DNA of 38,674 nt. Source: Clostridia bacterium (lineage in GTDB: Bacteria; Bacillota; Clostridia; Oscillospirales; CAG-272). The notes beneath the pieces were generated by a model, which saw only the letters and a list, made by a program, of their open reading frames with translations, was not told where the DNA came from and did no database searches. The stretch is taken from positions 1 to 38,674 of the forward strand of contig JAFUQP010000039.1 of NCBI GenBank assembly GCA_017472305.1, read 5' to 3'. Positions 27,894 through 34,089 of the stretch are shown here, piece by piece (position 1 is the first letter of the stretch; each line of letters starts with the position of its first letter). A program made the translations under genes and the position numbers.

Positions 27894-30770
27894 ATGGAAA
27901 TTAACGAGATAATCCACGGCTTTACCGTGGCGGAAAAGAAAAAAATCGCCTCACCCGAGGGAAATATTTATATCCTCGAGCATAAAAACACCGGTGCGAG
28001 AGTAGTTTACTTTGAGCGCGAGGACAGAAACAAGACCTTTGCAATAGGCTTCAGAACCCTGCCCACCGACGACACGGGTGTATTCCATATAATTGAGCAT
28101 TCAACCCTCTGCGGCTCGAAGAAATTCCCGACAAAGGAGCCCTTCGTTGAGCTTCTCAAATGCTCGCTTAACACCTTCCTCAACGCATTCACCTGCGAGG
28201 ATAAAACCGTTTATCCCGTTTCTTCACAGAACGATAAGGACTTCTACAACCTTGTTTCGGTCTATCTTGATGCAGTTTTCAGTCCTCTTATGATTGAAAA
28301 CGAAAACATTTTTCTCCAAGAGGGTTGGCACTACTCCTTTGACGGAGAGGGCAAGGCAGGCTACAACGGCGTTGTTTACAACGAAATGACAGGCGCGTAT
28401 TCCTCGCCCGAGGAGCTTTCTGCGCTCGAGCTATCTCGCTCGCTCTTTGAGGGAACGCCCTATGCCTTTGACTCGGGCGGAAATCCCGAGAGTATACCGA
28501 CACTCACCTACGATGATTTCCGTTCGGCACATAAGAAGCACTACCACCCGTCAAACTCGACGGTAATCCTTGACGGCAGCGTTGACCTTGACGGTATACT
28601 GCCACTTATCGACTCATATTTCTCACGCTACGAAAGGCATACCCCTGCCCTTCCCGACTACGAAATAACCCCCACGATTTCCGAGCCAAGACGAGTATTC
28701 TATCGCGCTGACGACGGCGACGGCAGAGGACGCGTAAGAATAAGCATAGGCTCTGTTTTCGCCGATTACAAGAACCGTCTTGAAAATCTTGCGGCAACCG
28801 TGCTAATCAGTACTCTCGCAGGCTCAAACGAGTCACCCATTAAGAAGGCTCTGCTAGACAAGAGGCTCTGCGACGACGTCTATATGTACGTCAATCGCGG
28901 CGAAATGCAAACTTTTATTGTCGAAATCATAGGTGTTAAAGAGGAAAAAGCCGACGAAGCCATAAGCGAGCTTCAAATTGCTGCCCAAAGGCTTATTACA
29001 GAGGGCATCTCCAAAAACGAGCTTTCCGCAACTCTCTCACACCTGGAGTTCAAGCTTACAGAGGGAGAGAGCGGCAGTATGCCGAAGGGCGTCAGCCACG
29101 CGCTGGCAATTATCGACGCACTCTATTACGGTGAGGATATCGGCTCGGTCTTTGAGGACGAGGGCAAGCTTGCAGAGCTATCCGCACTCATTCCCACAGG
29201 CTATTTTGAAGAGCTGCTTGAGAGAATTCTCTTGAAGCCCACCCACGCGGCGACGGTACTCCTTATTCCCGACCCCGAACTAAAATCAGCGCCGTCACCC
29301 GACCTCTCAGGACTGACCGAGGACCAAATAACGGCACTTATGGAAAAAGAGGTCGCGCTTCTCACCGCCCAGTCGGAGCAGGACTCGCCCGAGGCACTCA
29401 AGACAATCCCTACCCTTGAAATTTCCGACCTCGACAGAATAGGTGAATTCAACACTCCCAAAGAGGACAGCCACCTCGGAAGAAGAATTATTCTTCCCAC
29501 CGTTAAGTCGGAGTCTATTCTCTACACCTCGCTCTTCTTCAATTGCTCCGACCTCGACGAGGAATCCCTGACGCTTCTCACCCTGCTCTCTGCGGCGATA
29601 ACCAATCTGGAAACCGAGAATTACTCGCCGCTGGAGCTATCCAGTAAAATAAAGGCAACTCTCGGCTCCTTTGCCACCGTTACAGGCTCCACCTCGCCAA
29701 TAGACGGAAGAGCTATGCCGTATATCAAGCTTATCGGCTCGGCGCTTGCAAAAAACGCAAACGAGCTTGTGAAGCTAACCGAGGAAGCATTGCTCAGAAC
29801 CCGCTATACCGACAGAGATATGCTTGAAAAGCTGCTGCTGCAAATCCGCTCTGTCACCGAGGACTCTATGCGTGAGAGCGGCGACTCATTAGCACTCGGC
29901 AGAGCCGAGGCGCACACCACCCCATACGGAAAAATTATGGAGTCGCTCGTCGGTCTTGATGCCTACCTGCGAATAAAGCAATATATCAAGACTCACAGCG
30001 AGCACCCCGAGGCTCTCTCCGAGGCACTTGCGGCACTTTCAAAAAAGGTCTTCGTGCGCGAGCGAATAACCGTGTCAGTCGCCTCGAGTGAAAGAGAGGG
30101 CGAGTGCGCGAGGTCGCTTGCAAGGCGTCTTACGGAGCTATTCCCCTGCTCGAATACAGAAGTGGTCCCGATAGATTATAAGCCCCTTGAACGCGGGCGA
30201 GAGGTTATAGAAATTCCGACCGACACGTCCTACACCGCCCTCGCGCTCTATTCAGAGGAGGCGAAGAGAAACTACGGAATTCTCCGCATAGCCCGCACAG
30301 CTCTCTCCTACGGATACCTTTGGGAGAACGTCAGAGTCAAGGGCGGTGCCTACGGCACAGGCTTTTCGGCGAGAAGAATGGGCGCTATGTCCTTCCATTC
30401 ATACCGCGACCCCTCGCCCGAGCAATCTCTCGCAACGTACAGGAGTGCGCCCGAGGCGCTTCGCGCGCTGGCGAGCGATACCGACCTTTCAAGGTATATT
30501 ATAGGCGTTATCGGCGACCTTGACCAGCCTAAATCCCCAAGACTCGAGGCAGCGCAGGCTACCGCCGACGCGCTAAACGGCTGGACTGCCGAAAGAGATG
30601 CCGCCGAGAGAGAAAAAATTCTCACGGCAAATAAGGACTCGCTTCTTCTGGCTGCGGACATCATAGAGCAGGCAGAGAAATCAAGCTCCGAGGCAGTCGT
30701 CACAGGCGAGAGGACCGCACGCGAGCTTCGGGCACGCGGCTTTACGGTAATATCTCCCGAGAAGGCGTAG
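27894..30770 (+). CDS. M16C metallopeptidase (presequence protease/Cym1-like)
   Basis: A 958-residue zinc peptidase of the insulinase superfamily. The inverted zinc motif HIIEH is at 65-69, followed by STLCGSKKFPTKEPFVELLK, typical of the PreP/falcilysin branch. The distal glutamate lies in NEMTGAYSSPEE. Residues up to about 430 and from about 500 on form the two halves of the clam-shell chamber, the second being catalytically inactive. It degrades short unfolded peptides in the cytoplasm; no signal peptide is present. C-terminal GGAYGTGFSARR resembles the substrate C-terminus-binding region. It is monocistronic with its own promoter. Confidence 0.93.
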   Translation: MEINEIIHGFTVAEKKKIASPEGNIYILEHKNTGARVVYFEREDRNKTFAIGFRTLPTDDTGVFHIIEHSTLCGSKKFPTKEPFVELLKCSLNTFLNAFTCEDKTVYPVSSQNDKDFYNLVSVYLDAVFSPLMIENENIFLQEGWHYSFDGEGKAGYNGVVYNEMTGAYSSPEELSALELSRSLFEGTPYAFDSGGNPESIPTLTYDDFRSAHKKHYHPSNSTVILDGSVDLDGILPLIDSYFSRYERHTPALPDYEITPTISEPRRVFYRADDGDGRGRVRISIGSVFADYKNRLENLAATVLISTLAGSNESPIKKALLDKRLCDDVYMYVNRGEMQTFIVEIIGVKEEKADEAISELQIAAQRLITEGISKNELSATLSHLEFKLTEGESGSMPKGVSHALAIIDALYYGEDIGSVFEDEGKLAELSALIPTGYFEELLERILLKPTHAATVLLIPDPELKSAPSPDLSGLTEDQITALMEKEVALLTAQSEQDSPEALKTIPTLEISDLDRIGEFNTPKEDSHLGRRIILPTVKSESILYTSLFFNCSDLDEESLTLLTLLSAAITNLETENYSPLELSSKIKATLGSFATVTGSTSPIDGRAMPYIKLIGSALAKNANELVKLTEEALLRTRYTDRDMLEKLLLQIRSVTEDSMRESGDSLALGRAEAHTTPYGKIMESLVGLDAYLRIKQYIKTHSEHPEALSEALAALSKKVFVRERITVSVASSEREGECARSLARRLTELFPCSNTEVVPIDYKPLERGREVIEIPTDTSYTALALYSEEAKRNYGILRIARTALSYGYLWENVRVKGGAYGTGFSARRMGAMSFHSYRDPSPEQSLATYRSAPEALRALASDTDLSRYIIGVIGDLDQPKSPRLEAAQATADALNGWTAERDAAEREKILTANKDSLLLAADIIEQAEKSSSEAVVTGERTARELRARGFTVISPEKA

Positions 30771-30852
30771 GAGTGCTTGTTCGCTTGTCAAATTTATAAC
30801 GGATTTCGCAATTTTTTAACAGATTTTACCCAAGAAACCAAGCTTTTTTTAC

Positions 30853-30881
30853 TTGACATTACGTGTCGGATATTGTATAAT
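30853..30881 (+). promoter_or_regulatory. Sigma-A promoter of the pyruvate formate-lyase operon
   Basis: A near-perfect TTGACA (30853-30858), 17 bp, TATAAT (30876-30881). Transcription should start near 30888, giving a leader of about 128 nt before ATG 31016. I could not find a Rex or Fnr-like palindrome next to it. Confidence 0.92.
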
Positions 30882-30891
30882 ATTTTGATGT

Positions 30892-30971
30892 GCGAGCGAT
30901 GGTAGTGCGGCATATAAGCAGCCCGACGTCAGTCGGCGGCACTCCGAAAAACCTTGGTATAAAGCGCTCGC
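30892..30971 (+). promoter_or_regulatory. Structured 5' leader of the pflB message
   Basis: Three nested perfect stems: GCGAGCG (30892-30898) with CGCTCGC (30965-30971); AGTGC (30904-30908) with GCACT (30939-30943); CCGAC (30923-30927) with GTCGG (30932-30936) closed by GTCA. The ribosome binding site AAGGACAT lies beyond the fold. It does not contain the conserved blocks of the ZTP (pfl) riboswitch as I know them. Confidence 0.45.
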
Positions 30972-31015
30972 CGTCAATCAATACTAGTAAAAAAAGCAGA
31001 AAGGCAAGGACATAT

Positions 31016-33121
31016 ATGGATTACAAATACGAGGGCTGGGAAGGCTTCGAGACAGGCAAATGGACCAAAGAAATTAACGTAAGAAGCTTTATCACCCATA
31101 ACTACACCCCCTACGACGGAGACGAGAGCTTCCTTGAGGGAGCAACAGACGATACAAAGTCTCTCTGGGACCAGGTACTCGAGCTTACAAAAAAGGAGCG
31201 CGAGGCAGGCGGTGTCCTCGATATGGACACCAAGGTTATCTCTACCATAACCTCTCACGGTCCCGGCTATCTCGACAAGGATAAGGAAAAGATAGTCGGC
31301 TTCCAGACCGACAAGCCCTTAAAACGCGCGCTTATGCCCTACGGCGGTATCCGTATGGCGGAGAAGGCGTGCAAGGACAACGGCTATGAGCTCGACCCCT
31401 CGGTCAAGGAGTTCTTCACCATTCACAGAAAAACCCACAACGCAGGCGTTTTCGACGCATACACCCCCGAGATGAGAGCCTGCCGCTCGAGCCACATTAT
31501 CACAGGTCTTCCCGACGCATACGGCAGAGGCAGAATTATCGGCGACTACCGCCGAGTTGCGCTCTACGGCGTTGACCGCCTCATTGAGGACAAGCAGATG
31601 CAGAAGGACACCTCAAGAACCACGATGCTTGCCGACAATATCCGCGACAGAGAGGAGCTTTCCGAGCAGATAAGAGCTCTCGAGGAGCTTAAGAAAATGG
31701 CGGCGTCCTATGGCTACGACATCTCGCTGCCCGCACGCGACACAAAGGAAGCTATTCAGTGGCTCTACTTCGGATATCTTGCTGCGGTCAAGGAGCAGAA
31801 CGGTGCGGCGATGTCGCTCGGAAGAACCTCGACCTTCCTCGATATCTACGCAGAGCGTGACCTTAAGCGCGGCACCTATACAGAGCGTGAGCTTCAGGAG
31901 CTCGTTGACCACTTCATTATGAAGCTTCGCCTTGTAAAGTTTGCGCGCACACCCGAGTACAACGCGCTCTTCTCAGGCGACCCCCAGTGGGTTACCGAGT
32001 CTATCGCAGGTATGTCGACCGACGGCAGACACATGGTTACCAAGATGTCCTACCGTTACCTTCACACCCTCGAGAACCTCGGCGCGGCGCCCGAGCCCAA
32101 CCTCACGGTTCTCTGGTCTACAAGACTTCCCGATAACTTCAAGCGCTTCTGCGCGAGAATCTCTATCGAAACAAGCTCTGTTCAGTACGAGAACGACGAC
32201 CTTATGAGATTCACCCACGGCGACGACTATGCTATCGCCTGCTGCGTATCCTCTATGAGAATCGGAAAGGAAATGCAGTTCTTCGGAGCGAGAGCTAACC
32301 TTGCAAAGTGCCTTCTCTACGCAATCAACGGCGGCGTTGACGAAATTTCCGGAAAGCAGATAGGTCCGGAATACAGACCCGTCACCACCGAATATCTTGA
32401 GTTTGATGACGTAATGAAAAAATACGACTTTATGCTCAAGTGGCTCTCCGAGGTATACGTCAATACCCTTAATATTATTCACTATATGCACGACAAGTAC
32501 TGCTACGAGAAGATTCAGATGGCTCTTCACGACAAGAACGTTACCCGTTGGTTTGCTACGGGAATTGCAGGACTCTCGGTCGTTGCAGACTCGCTTTCGG
32601 CTATTAAGTACGCGCGCGTAAAGCCGATACGCGACGAAAGAGGAATCGCTGTTGACTTCGAGATTGAGGGCGACTTCCCCAAGTTCGGAAACGACGACGA
32701 CAGAGTTGACTCTCTCGCATACGAGGTCGTTCAGATGTTTATGAATCACATCAGAAAGAAGCAGACCTACCGCGATAGCATTCCCACAACGTCTATTCTC
32801 ACCATCACCTCGAACGTCGTATACGGTAATAACACCGGTGCAACCCCCGACGGAAGAAAGAAGGGTGAGGCGTTCGCTCCCGGTGCAAACCCCATGCACA
32901 GACGCGACACTCACGGCGCAATAGCTTCTCTTGCCTCGGTATCGAAGCTTCCCTTCAAGGACGCGCAGGACGGAATTTCCAATACCTTCTCGATTATCCC
33001 CGGTGCGCTCGGCAAGGACGATACAATATTCGCAGGAGATATTGAGGTAGACCTCGACTGCTCTACCGGCGCATGCTCCACCCCCACCCTCTTCGAGGCA
33101 CTCGATTCCGACGAGGACTAA
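31016..33121 (+). CDS. pflB: Pyruvate formate-lyase catalytic core lacking the glycyl-radical domain
   Basis: A 701-residue protein matching formate C-acetyltransferase from the N-terminus through the ten-stranded barrel. It converts pyruvate and CoA to acetyl-CoA and formate in anaerobic fermentation. The active cysteine pair Cys409-Cys410 lies in [20 protein letters not shown]. Homology holds to [17 protein letters not shown] (ending about residue 669). Here normal PflB (E. coli, 760 residues) runs on into the glycine loop with RVSGYA; this protein has a 32-residue unrelated tail with CSTGAC (Cys682, Cys687) and ends in DSDED. The radical domain is the next gene. ATG 31016 follows AAGGACAT; an upstream in-frame ATG lies in the leader. 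No activase gene is adjacent. Confidence 0.95.
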
Positions 33122-33175
33122 ATCACCCGTATTTGCAAACATTACTTTGCAAAAACGCGCAAAACAGATAAAAAT

Positions 33176-33213
33176 CATAGCAAAGCAAGAAGTAAAGACA
33201 CTAGTCTGCTATG
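33176..33213 (+). promoter_or_regulatory. Hairpin between the pflB core and the radical-domain gene
   Basis: CATAGCA (33176-33182) pairs with TGCTATG (33207-33213); a small AGAC/GTCT stem lies inside. Upstream, the self-complementary octamer TTTGCAAA occurs at 33133-33140 and again at 33147-33154. A weak promoter-like TTGCAA/16 bp/TAAAAA (33147-33174) is also possible. The 120-nt gap may therefore process the message or start the small gene separately. Confidence 0.35.
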
Positions 33214-33241
33214 AAAAACGCAAGGAAAGGAAACAGAGAAA

Positions 33242-33484
33242 ATGGCAGCAACAAAAAATCAGATAGACAACCTCGTATCTCTCCTTGACGGATACGTCAA
33301 GAAGGGCGGACATCATCTTAACGTTAACGTTTTCACCCGCGAAACGCTTCTCGACGCGCAGGCGCACCCCGAGAAGTACCCCCAGCTTACCGTCAGAGTA
33401 AGCGGCTACGCGGTTAACTTCATCAAGCTCACAAAGGAGCAGCAGGACGAGGTTATCTCGAGAACCTTCCACGATAAGATTTAA
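33242..33484 (+). CDS. grcA: Stand-alone glycyl-radical domain of pyruvate formate-lyase (GrcA/YfiD-like subunit)
   Basis: An 80-residue protein equal to the C-terminal domain of PflB. It begins with a linker-like [11 protein letters not shown], then [35 protein letters not shown] with the radical-bearing Gly55, and ends ISRTFHDKI like full-length enzymes. In E. coli the related YfiD replaces an oxygen-damaged domain of an otherwise complete PflB; here the core gene has none of its own, so this protein should be an obligatory subunit. It has its own ATG and ribosome binding site (AAGGAAAGG) 120 nt after the core stop, and a terminator follows. It is shorter than YfiD (127 residues), lacking its N-terminal extension. 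Confidence 0.95.
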
Positions 33485-33509
33485 GAAAGCAACAATCCCC
33501 ATAGAAACG

Positions 33510-33552
33510 CGGCAAAGCAAAGAGGGCGCATACCTCTCGGCTTTGCCGTTTT
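33510..33552 (+). terminator. Intrinsic terminator of the pfl operon
   Basis: CGGCAAAGC (33510-33518) and GCTTTGCCG (33540-33548) form a perfect 9-bp stem with an inner AGAGG/CCTCT stem, followed by TTTTC. Confidence 0.9.
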
Positions 33553-33582
33553 CTAATATTTAATAGCTAATAAAACAAGAGA

Positions 33583-33644
33583 GGACGGGAAAGAAGCCGC
33601 CGACCTCGGTACGAGGTCATGGCGGGGGAAGATGCCCCTACCGC
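33583..33644. repeat. 62-bp structured repeat, copy 1
   Basis: Sixty of 62 positions match copy 2 at 33987-34048. The unit holds a palindrome, CCGCC-GACCTCG-GTA-CGAGGTC-AT-GGCGG, then GGGG-aagat-GCCCC. The 604-bp stretch 33485-34088 contains no convincing gene: besides the pfl terminator it consists of such repeats and hairpins. Confidence 0.9.
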
Positions 33645-33677
33645 TCCAAAGCAAAAGGACACCCACAAGGAGTGTCC
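33644..33677. repeat. 34-bp direct repeat with hairpin, copy 1
   Basis: CTCCAAAGCAAAAGGACAC, a short loop and GTGTCC. The same 34 bp recur at 33823-33856 with two differences, 179 bp further on. In this copy the right arm lacks the TTTTG extension, so the terminator-like fold is incomplete. Confidence 0.85.
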
Positions 33678-33822
33678 CTGAAGCGTGATTACTAAAGCAT
33701 TTCGCTTTAGTGCGAAAAGCTTTCCGCAGTTTTGCCGACGGCAAAACATGACGCAAAATCGCTCTGTTGCGCTTTTGCTCGAGGGCTAGCCTCGCTTTTT
33801 GCGAGGCAGCTCCGCGCCACAT

Positions 33823-33869
33823 CTCCAAAGCAAAAGGACACTCACAGGGAGTGTCCTTTTGTTTTGGAG
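33823..33869. terminator. 20-bp hairpin with A/T flanks (bidirectional terminator-like), repeat copy 2
   Basis: Bases 33823-33842 pair with 33850-33869 over 20 bp with a single G-U pair. The core is AAAAGGACACT/AGTGTCCTTTT, the usual layout of a bidirectional intrinsic terminator. It adjoins the tRNA-Gly 3' remnant at 33864-33881. Confidence 0.7.
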
Positions 33870-34050: not shown

Positions 34051-34089
34051 AATGTAAAAGGACACCCACAAGGAGTGTCCTTTTACATT
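34051..34089 (-). terminator. Terminator hairpin of the tRNA operon
   Basis: A perfect 15-bp stem: 34051-34065 pairs with 34075-34089, core AAAAGGACAC/GTGTCCTTTT. It begins at the CCA end of tRNA-Gly, so on the minus strand it follows the tRNA directly. The symmetric A/T flanks allow termination in both directions. Confidence 0.8.

Follow-up and report, generated by a model that had tools for sequence, protein, structure and literature searches.

Organisation of the locus

We analysed a 38,674-nucleotide window from a Clostridia bacterium of the gut in which two consecutive genes on the forward strand, the strand of the promoter- to terminator-like features of the unit given below, appear to encode one pyruvate formate-lyase (PFL) in two pieces. 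PFL is central to the fermentation of sugars and is normally a single protein. The first, at 31016..33121, starts with ATG and encodes a pflB-like core of 701 aa without a glycyl-radical domain. It matches TIGR01255 over model positions 2-664 of 744 (1103 bits, cut-off 994.2) and PF02901 over core residues 18-604, and the codons of its catalytic pair, Cys409-Cys410, lie at 32240..32245 within an ACCVS motif. In its body and adjacent cysteine pair the window core is a TIGR01255 protein, but the glycyl-radical domain that belongs on the same polypeptide is found in the next ORF. That ORF, grcA3 at 33242..33484, encodes a stand-alone glycyl-radical domain of 80 aa, with the codon of the radical glycine, Gly55, at 33404..33406 in an RVSGYA motif. 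The small protein belongs to NCBIfam NF038360 (GrcA3), scoring 168.3 bits against the curated cut-off of 158, and it covers TIGR01255 positions 664-744, so that core and small protein are complementary parts of one PFL. It falls outside TIGR04365, the GrcA/YfiD family, where it scores 93.5 bits against a cut-off of 170 and matches model positions 67-125 of 126 only; the N-terminal extension of YfiD is absent from GrcA3. A preliminary description of this DNA had placed both ORFs at these coordinates and had reported the gap of 120 nt, the Cys409/Cys410 pair and Gly55, all of which we recovered on re-reading the sequence, and had overlooked that NCBIfam already names the small protein.

The same description held that the core stops after GALGKDD, which is wrong. 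The window core continues for 32 residues beyond this point, forming a core-specific C-terminal tail (residues 670-701, 33023..33118) with an FAGDI motif, itself conserved, and two cysteines. In the form F.G[DE][LI], the motif is carried by 81 of the 100 split-core tails left after removal of two duplicate loci, at one common offset in 78, against a mean of 0.6 and a maximum of 4 in shuffled tails; since the rows share ancestry, these counts are not independent. It is found in none of 52 full-length PFLs, a set that includes four genes present twice, within the 60 residues before SGYA, and in 0/46 in another count. With duplicates kept, 82 of 102 tails have the motif and 51 a cysteine, and four cores are without a tail, which means that some split PFLs manage without one. 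Among the 19 misses is L187 of genome G230, where the core frame is interrupted and falls into two ORFs (291 and 420 aa); its tail and small gene are undamaged, and the real tail does carry the motif. Tail cysteines are often paired, as in CACC, GCCE or C...GAC, and could possibly serve as a redox switch, a metal site or a radical guard. We give about even odds to the idea that GrcA3 docks on, or is recognised by, the FxGD(L/I) tail.

Upstream of the core gene, at 30853..30881, lies a sigma-70-type promoter-like site, TTGACA-17-TATAAT, that matches the consensus at 12/12 positions. It is the one such site in 30650-33700, where shuffles gave a mean of 2.4 at the scan threshold, and as a candidate it stands out by its perfect match alone, the count being no higher than in shuffles. 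The intergenic region of 120 nt (33122..33241) gave no listed terminator- or promoter-like sites when its forward strand was scanned, and its RNA fold has a z-score of -1.93, with 7 of 200 shuffles equally stable. Within it, at 33222..33230, the sequence AAGGAAAGG is the likely ribosome-binding site of the small gene. An inverted repeat followed by a T run at 33510..33553 (arms 33510-33525 and 33533-33548) is a possible terminator of the two-gene unit, a hairpin that the terminator scan did not list. Between grcA3 and three tRNA genes there are also three copies of the palindrome AAAGGACACnCnnnnGGnGTGTCCTT (33654-33680, 33833-33859 and 34057-34083; none in 100 shuffles) and a 70-nt repeat whose copies at 33575 and 33979 are 94% identical.

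The split across genomes

In the source genome both ORFs share one frame; exactly 40 codons separate them, and two stops, a TAA and a TGA, stand in between. This geometry could reflect a normal pflB gene broken by a frameshift or stop, or mis-assembled, with the two ORFs as its remnants; it would also suit stop-codon read-through or frameshifting that yields some fused full-length PFL from the same mRNA. To weigh these readings we draw on 100 core/small-gene pairs, mostly from Clostridia (leaving out L100, L182 and L183, as well as five small genes that have no core). The same arrangement recurs throughout, in isolates and complete chromosomes as well, which bears out the view that the split is natural and conserved. 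The gap ranges from -38 to 868 nt, with a median of 90, and is a multiple of three in only 30 of the pairs; counting the stop that ends the core, these 30 gaps contain from 1 to 12 stops in frame. In 98 of the 100 the small gene follows a Shine-Dalgarno 4-mer taken from AGGAGG, in agreement with the earlier claim that this gene has its own start and ribosome-binding site. Because so few gaps are in frame, read-through is not the mechanism, and with the small gene's own Shine-Dalgarno sequence we regard a fused product as extremely improbable.

Selection bears on decay in the same direction. In comparisons with relatives, dN/dS is 0.057-0.094 for the core body (7/7 comparisons), 0.016-0.042 for the small gene (6/7, the seventh being saturated), and 0.18 and 0.21 for the tail in the two computable comparisons of seven, the others being saturated; with synonymous sites near saturation, all these values are rough. 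They nonetheless indicate strong purifying selection on both the core body and the small gene. The catalytic residues are likewise kept, with ACCVS in 98/98 split cores that cover the site and R[VI]SGYA in 107/107 other small proteins (two duplicate loci counted in each), so the conservation check across homologues that had been proposed came out in favour of the split. Together with the variable gaps, the Shine-Dalgarno counts, and a tail motif that is absent from the 52 full-length PFLs, this selection agrees with the earlier statement that the small gene is not a frameshifted remainder. Decay or assembly error is, in our view, refuted by conservation across genera and phyla.

A further explanation is that GrcA3 is a spare part of the E. 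coli YfiD/GrcA type for a full-length PFL, with the truncated core as a side product. The NCBIfam name, autonomous glycyl radical cofactor GrcA3, points this way, and the content of the genomes bears on it directly. The source genome (2.03 Mb, 42 contigs, 86% complete) has one canonical PFL core and one GrcA3, and a search of this 86% complete assembly for a second, full-length PFL found none, so that, unlike a GrcA/YfiD, the small protein has no full-length PFL to serve in the genome as assembled. Its only other PF01228 match lies inside a 724-aa ORF that by eye we take to be the class III ribonucleotide reductase NrdD. A PflA-type activase is present on a different contig from the pair (G000:C18:19905-20609; 304.5 bits, cut-off 231.75), and its ORF, L066, contains the CxxxCxxC motif. 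The whole-genome checks proposed earlier thus returned no full-length PflB and one pflA above cut-off, and neither joined frames, a second complete pflB nor lost residues, which had been named as evidence against the split, turned up in the material searched.

Among 59 relatives, the source included, GrcA3 scores above its cut-off in seven, each time adjoining a truncated core, and no full-length PFL was found in those seven genomes (the source and six relatives); other members of the source genus have a full-length PFL. A wider contig scan with the glycyl-radical domain as query (P0002) kept the best 80 of at least 581 confirmed relatives. Stand-alone status is clear for 79 of these best 80 small ORFs, the remaining one, L146, beginning at a contig edge; a core ORF lies directly upstream in 76, some cut by contig ends. 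The four without an upstream core are L095, L136 and L146, all less than 400 nt from the contig start, and L096, an extra copy whose genome has a split pair elsewhere. By record title the hosts include Ruminococcus bicirculans, Blautia sp. An81, Lacrimispora amygdalina and Claveliimonas bilis, along with Gastranaerophilales MAGs and one Spirochaetales MAG. Every sample we used is biased toward GrcA3-like proteins except a class sample of 393 genomes with a requested completeness of at least 90%, a level below which the source genome falls. In that sample 222/393 have a canonical PFL at E 1e-150 and, among the matches listed, at least 21 genomes have a stand-alone GrcA3 frame (at least 22 frames); 21 of the 22 listed frames adjoin a truncated core, and contig ends interrupt a few of these cores.

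A further 50 split-bearing genomes, many of them incomplete, were reached through their loci; a full-length PFL turned up in two and was not found in the other 48 (9/10 and 39/40), and Ruminococcus bicirculans 80/3 and Blautia sp. An81 have the split PFL alone. At least three genomes do hold both forms, as the spare-part explanation would have it: G449 (Claveliimonas bilis) and G462, the two exceptions among the 50, and G364 of the class sample, with split L188 and full-length L200. In the class sample, G274 has two core matches, of which one was inspected. With the source at 86% completeness and many of the others being MAGs, unassembled regions could still hide a second PFL. Three genomes also carry extra unlinked GrcA3 genes that have no neighbouring core (L190 in G438, L096 on C6 of G453, and C44 of G456), again in line with a spare part; each of the three has a split pair as well. 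Set against this are the scarcity of full-length PFLs among split-bearing genomes, the truncated core beside nearly every listed GrcA3 of the class sample, and the missing YfiD-type extension, and on balance we consider a spare part for a full-length enzyme highly unlikely.

The activase PflA scores above cut-off in 27/27 split genomes searched. A comparison of positions puts it no more than about 1.1 kb away from the pair, on one contig with it, in 23 of the 27, which makes core-grcA3-pflA the usual unit. The exceptions, with PflA elsewhere in the genome, are the source (G000), G451, G468 and G476.

From these sequence data we consider it very likely, with a probability of about 0.9, that the PFL of the source bacterium is encoded as two obligatory subunits, the core and GrcA3. 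The preliminary description had proposed that a former spare part has become an obligatory, exchangeable subunit. Its first half very probably stands, given the lack of a full-length PFL in the source, the six relatives and nearly all the further genomes, the presence of an activase and the purifying selection; its second half, exchange after oxygen cleavage, is conjecture.

Split PFLs were also seen outside Clostridia, in records titled Muribaculaceae (L132) and Spirochaetales (L138) and in Collinsella (L203, a circular replicon), possibly through horizontal transfer. The L132 core is 97.1% identical to a Melainabacteria core, L131, and its record may be mis-binned. Phage records contain glycyl-radical domains as well: 1539 of 50,697 have one like P0002, 42 of them covering at least 80% of the query. 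These phages are mainly named for Escherichia, Salmonella and Klebsiella, and the two best matches are short unverified faecal contigs.

Known relatives and history of the split

One close known relative is E. coli PflB (TIGR01255), which is 64% identical to the window core and shares its body, its cysteine pair, the RVSGYA domain and a PflA-type activase in the genome. It is, however, a single chain of 760 codons rather than two chains, and it continues into the radical domain where the window core has its tail. E. coli GrcA/YfiD resembles the small protein in being a stand-alone glycyl-radical domain (68% identity over 60 residues), but it is 127 aa long with an N-terminal part, whereas the window GrcA3 has 80 aa and no extension, and it serves a full-length PFL, whereas GrcA3 of the window type usually occurs without one in the genome.

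Experiments on the E. coli proteins, as reported in the portions of PMC8683613 consulted, offer a close parallel. According to these portions, YfiD binding requires PFL residues 696-733 and the N-terminal 60 residues of YfiD, and PFL truncated after residue 695 shows no YfiD binding detectable by ITC and a 32-fold lower activation (PMC8683613). Truncated PFL with truncated YfiD still takes up a glycyl radical, at 2.7 uM compared with 15.9 uM for cleaved PFL with whole YfiD, and the truncated complexes, once activated, match wild-type activity (same portions of PMC8683613). The natural split pair resembles this hand-made, doubly truncated pair as described there, with the differences that the natural core has a new tail and is cut somewhat earlier in the chain. 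We count the activity of the hand-made pair in favour of a two-subunit enzyme, and its low radical yield against it.

Parts of this system are already known. The GrcA3 family has its name, with the window small protein scoring above the NF038360 cut-off, and the RefSeq annotation of Collinsella aerofaciens has a 683-aa pflB followed by an 83-aa grcA3 in the same gene order, its core carrying the tail motif. The annotation viewed presents GrcA3 as an autonomous cofactor, and obligatory pairing, the tail and re-fusion do not appear in that part of it. Among the open-access papers listed, judged from titles and the starts of abstracts, we recognised no description of a natural split PFL, nor do the portions consulted of PMC12338860, PMC12288474, PMC13278490 and PMC8683613 describe one.

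Two structures in the PDB may already represent such cores. The chains 38la_A and 38lb_A, both named "Formate acetyltransferase", are 72% (38la) and 73% (38lb) identical to the window core. The 739-aa 38lb falls in the tailed split clade (97*) and continues after LGK with SGNVMFGECDMCEMKEL and then 37 more residues; 38la, of 687 aa, stops at LGKED and clusters with L196 and L198, two cores that have no tail (95). The radical domain gave no match to either at E 0.001 in a PDB search, and no separate GrcA3-like chain of theirs was matched in the PDB. We infer that both are solved split cores, although 38la could instead be an engineered truncation.

The history of the split was read from a tree of 138 cores, 88 split and 50 full-length, from which nine near-duplicates, L100, L106 and short fragments had been dropped. 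The split state requires three changes on this tree, compared with a mean of 40.7 when states are shuffled, and the starred branches force at least two changes. Rooted with E. coli PflB as outgroup, the tree is compatible with an early split. Its base is occupied by the two tail-less cores L196 and L198 and by the long-branched full-length L200, and for this reason one origin and two origins are both possible.

Nested inside the split clade are two full-length PFLs, L039 from G005, a genome of the same genus as the source, and L199 from G339. Their position holds under a mixture model with 58 chosen rows, and grouping the 37 tailed split rows of that subset without them is rejected (p-AU 0.00077), the group of 37 having been picked after the tree was seen. 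The radical domains of L039 and L199 have mean identities of 0.80 and 0.81 to GrcA3, against 0.68 and 0.70 to the domains of other full-length PFLs, and both proteins are without the tail. These two genes probably arose by re-fusion of the split pair.

A probable two-subunit enzyme and its possible repair

If the two-subunit reading is correct, the division of labour can be sketched. By sequence, the PFL body and Cys409/Cys410 belong to the large subunit, and the radical domain with Gly55 is GrcA3, the small one. GrcA3 would dock at the site that the covalent domain occupies in E. coli PFL, perhaps recognised by the tail of the core, a step to which we give about even odds and which is weaker than the two-subunit enzyme itself. 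PflA would then generate the radical on Gly55, and from there the radical would move to the cysteine pair, where pyruvate and CoA would be converted to formate and acetyl-CoA. For species with a split PFL only, we found no measured formate production in the literature searched.

Oxygen destroys glycyl radical enzymes by cleaving their chain at the glycine that holds the radical. In a split enzyme, oxygen would cleave GrcA3 at Gly55, and a new 80-aa GrcA3 could replace the damaged one while the 701-aa body is reused. We hold the exchange of oxygen-damaged GrcA3 with reuse of the core to be a balanced proposition, with which the extra unlinked copies of GrcA3 in three genomes are compatible without being proof. 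A rival to this repair step, and to this step only, is that the split is regulatory: separate translation would set the ratio of core to radical domain, with oxygen uninvolved. The separate Shine-Dalgarno sequence, the variable gap and the extra unlinked GrcA3 copies would all suit such a role, and most hosts of the split PFL are strict anaerobes. We regard regulation as a serious contender, albeit somewhat short of an even bet.

Taken to its fullest extent, the two-subunit reading leads to a self-repairing enzyme with a reusable body and swapped radical subunits, in which the tail, with cysteines in about half of the cases, docks or gates GrcA3 and PflA, and which arose once, spread between gut phyla and was re-fused at least once. 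We offer this combined picture tentatively, as something that may be true but that we would not expect to hold in all its parts.

The two-subunit reading has consequences for annotation and for the study of radical enzymes. Truncated pflB genes of this kind are not broken, and GrcA3 is probably not an optional spare. A PFL made of two chains in nature would demonstrate that a radical domain can serve permanently as a subunit. The split PFL is also a ready system for asking how spare radical domains dock and become activated, and the obvious target for such tests is the tail motif, which occurs in split cores and in none of the full-length PFLs that we examined. If exchange is true as well, the cell would replace only the piece of its fermentation enzyme that oxygen has destroyed.
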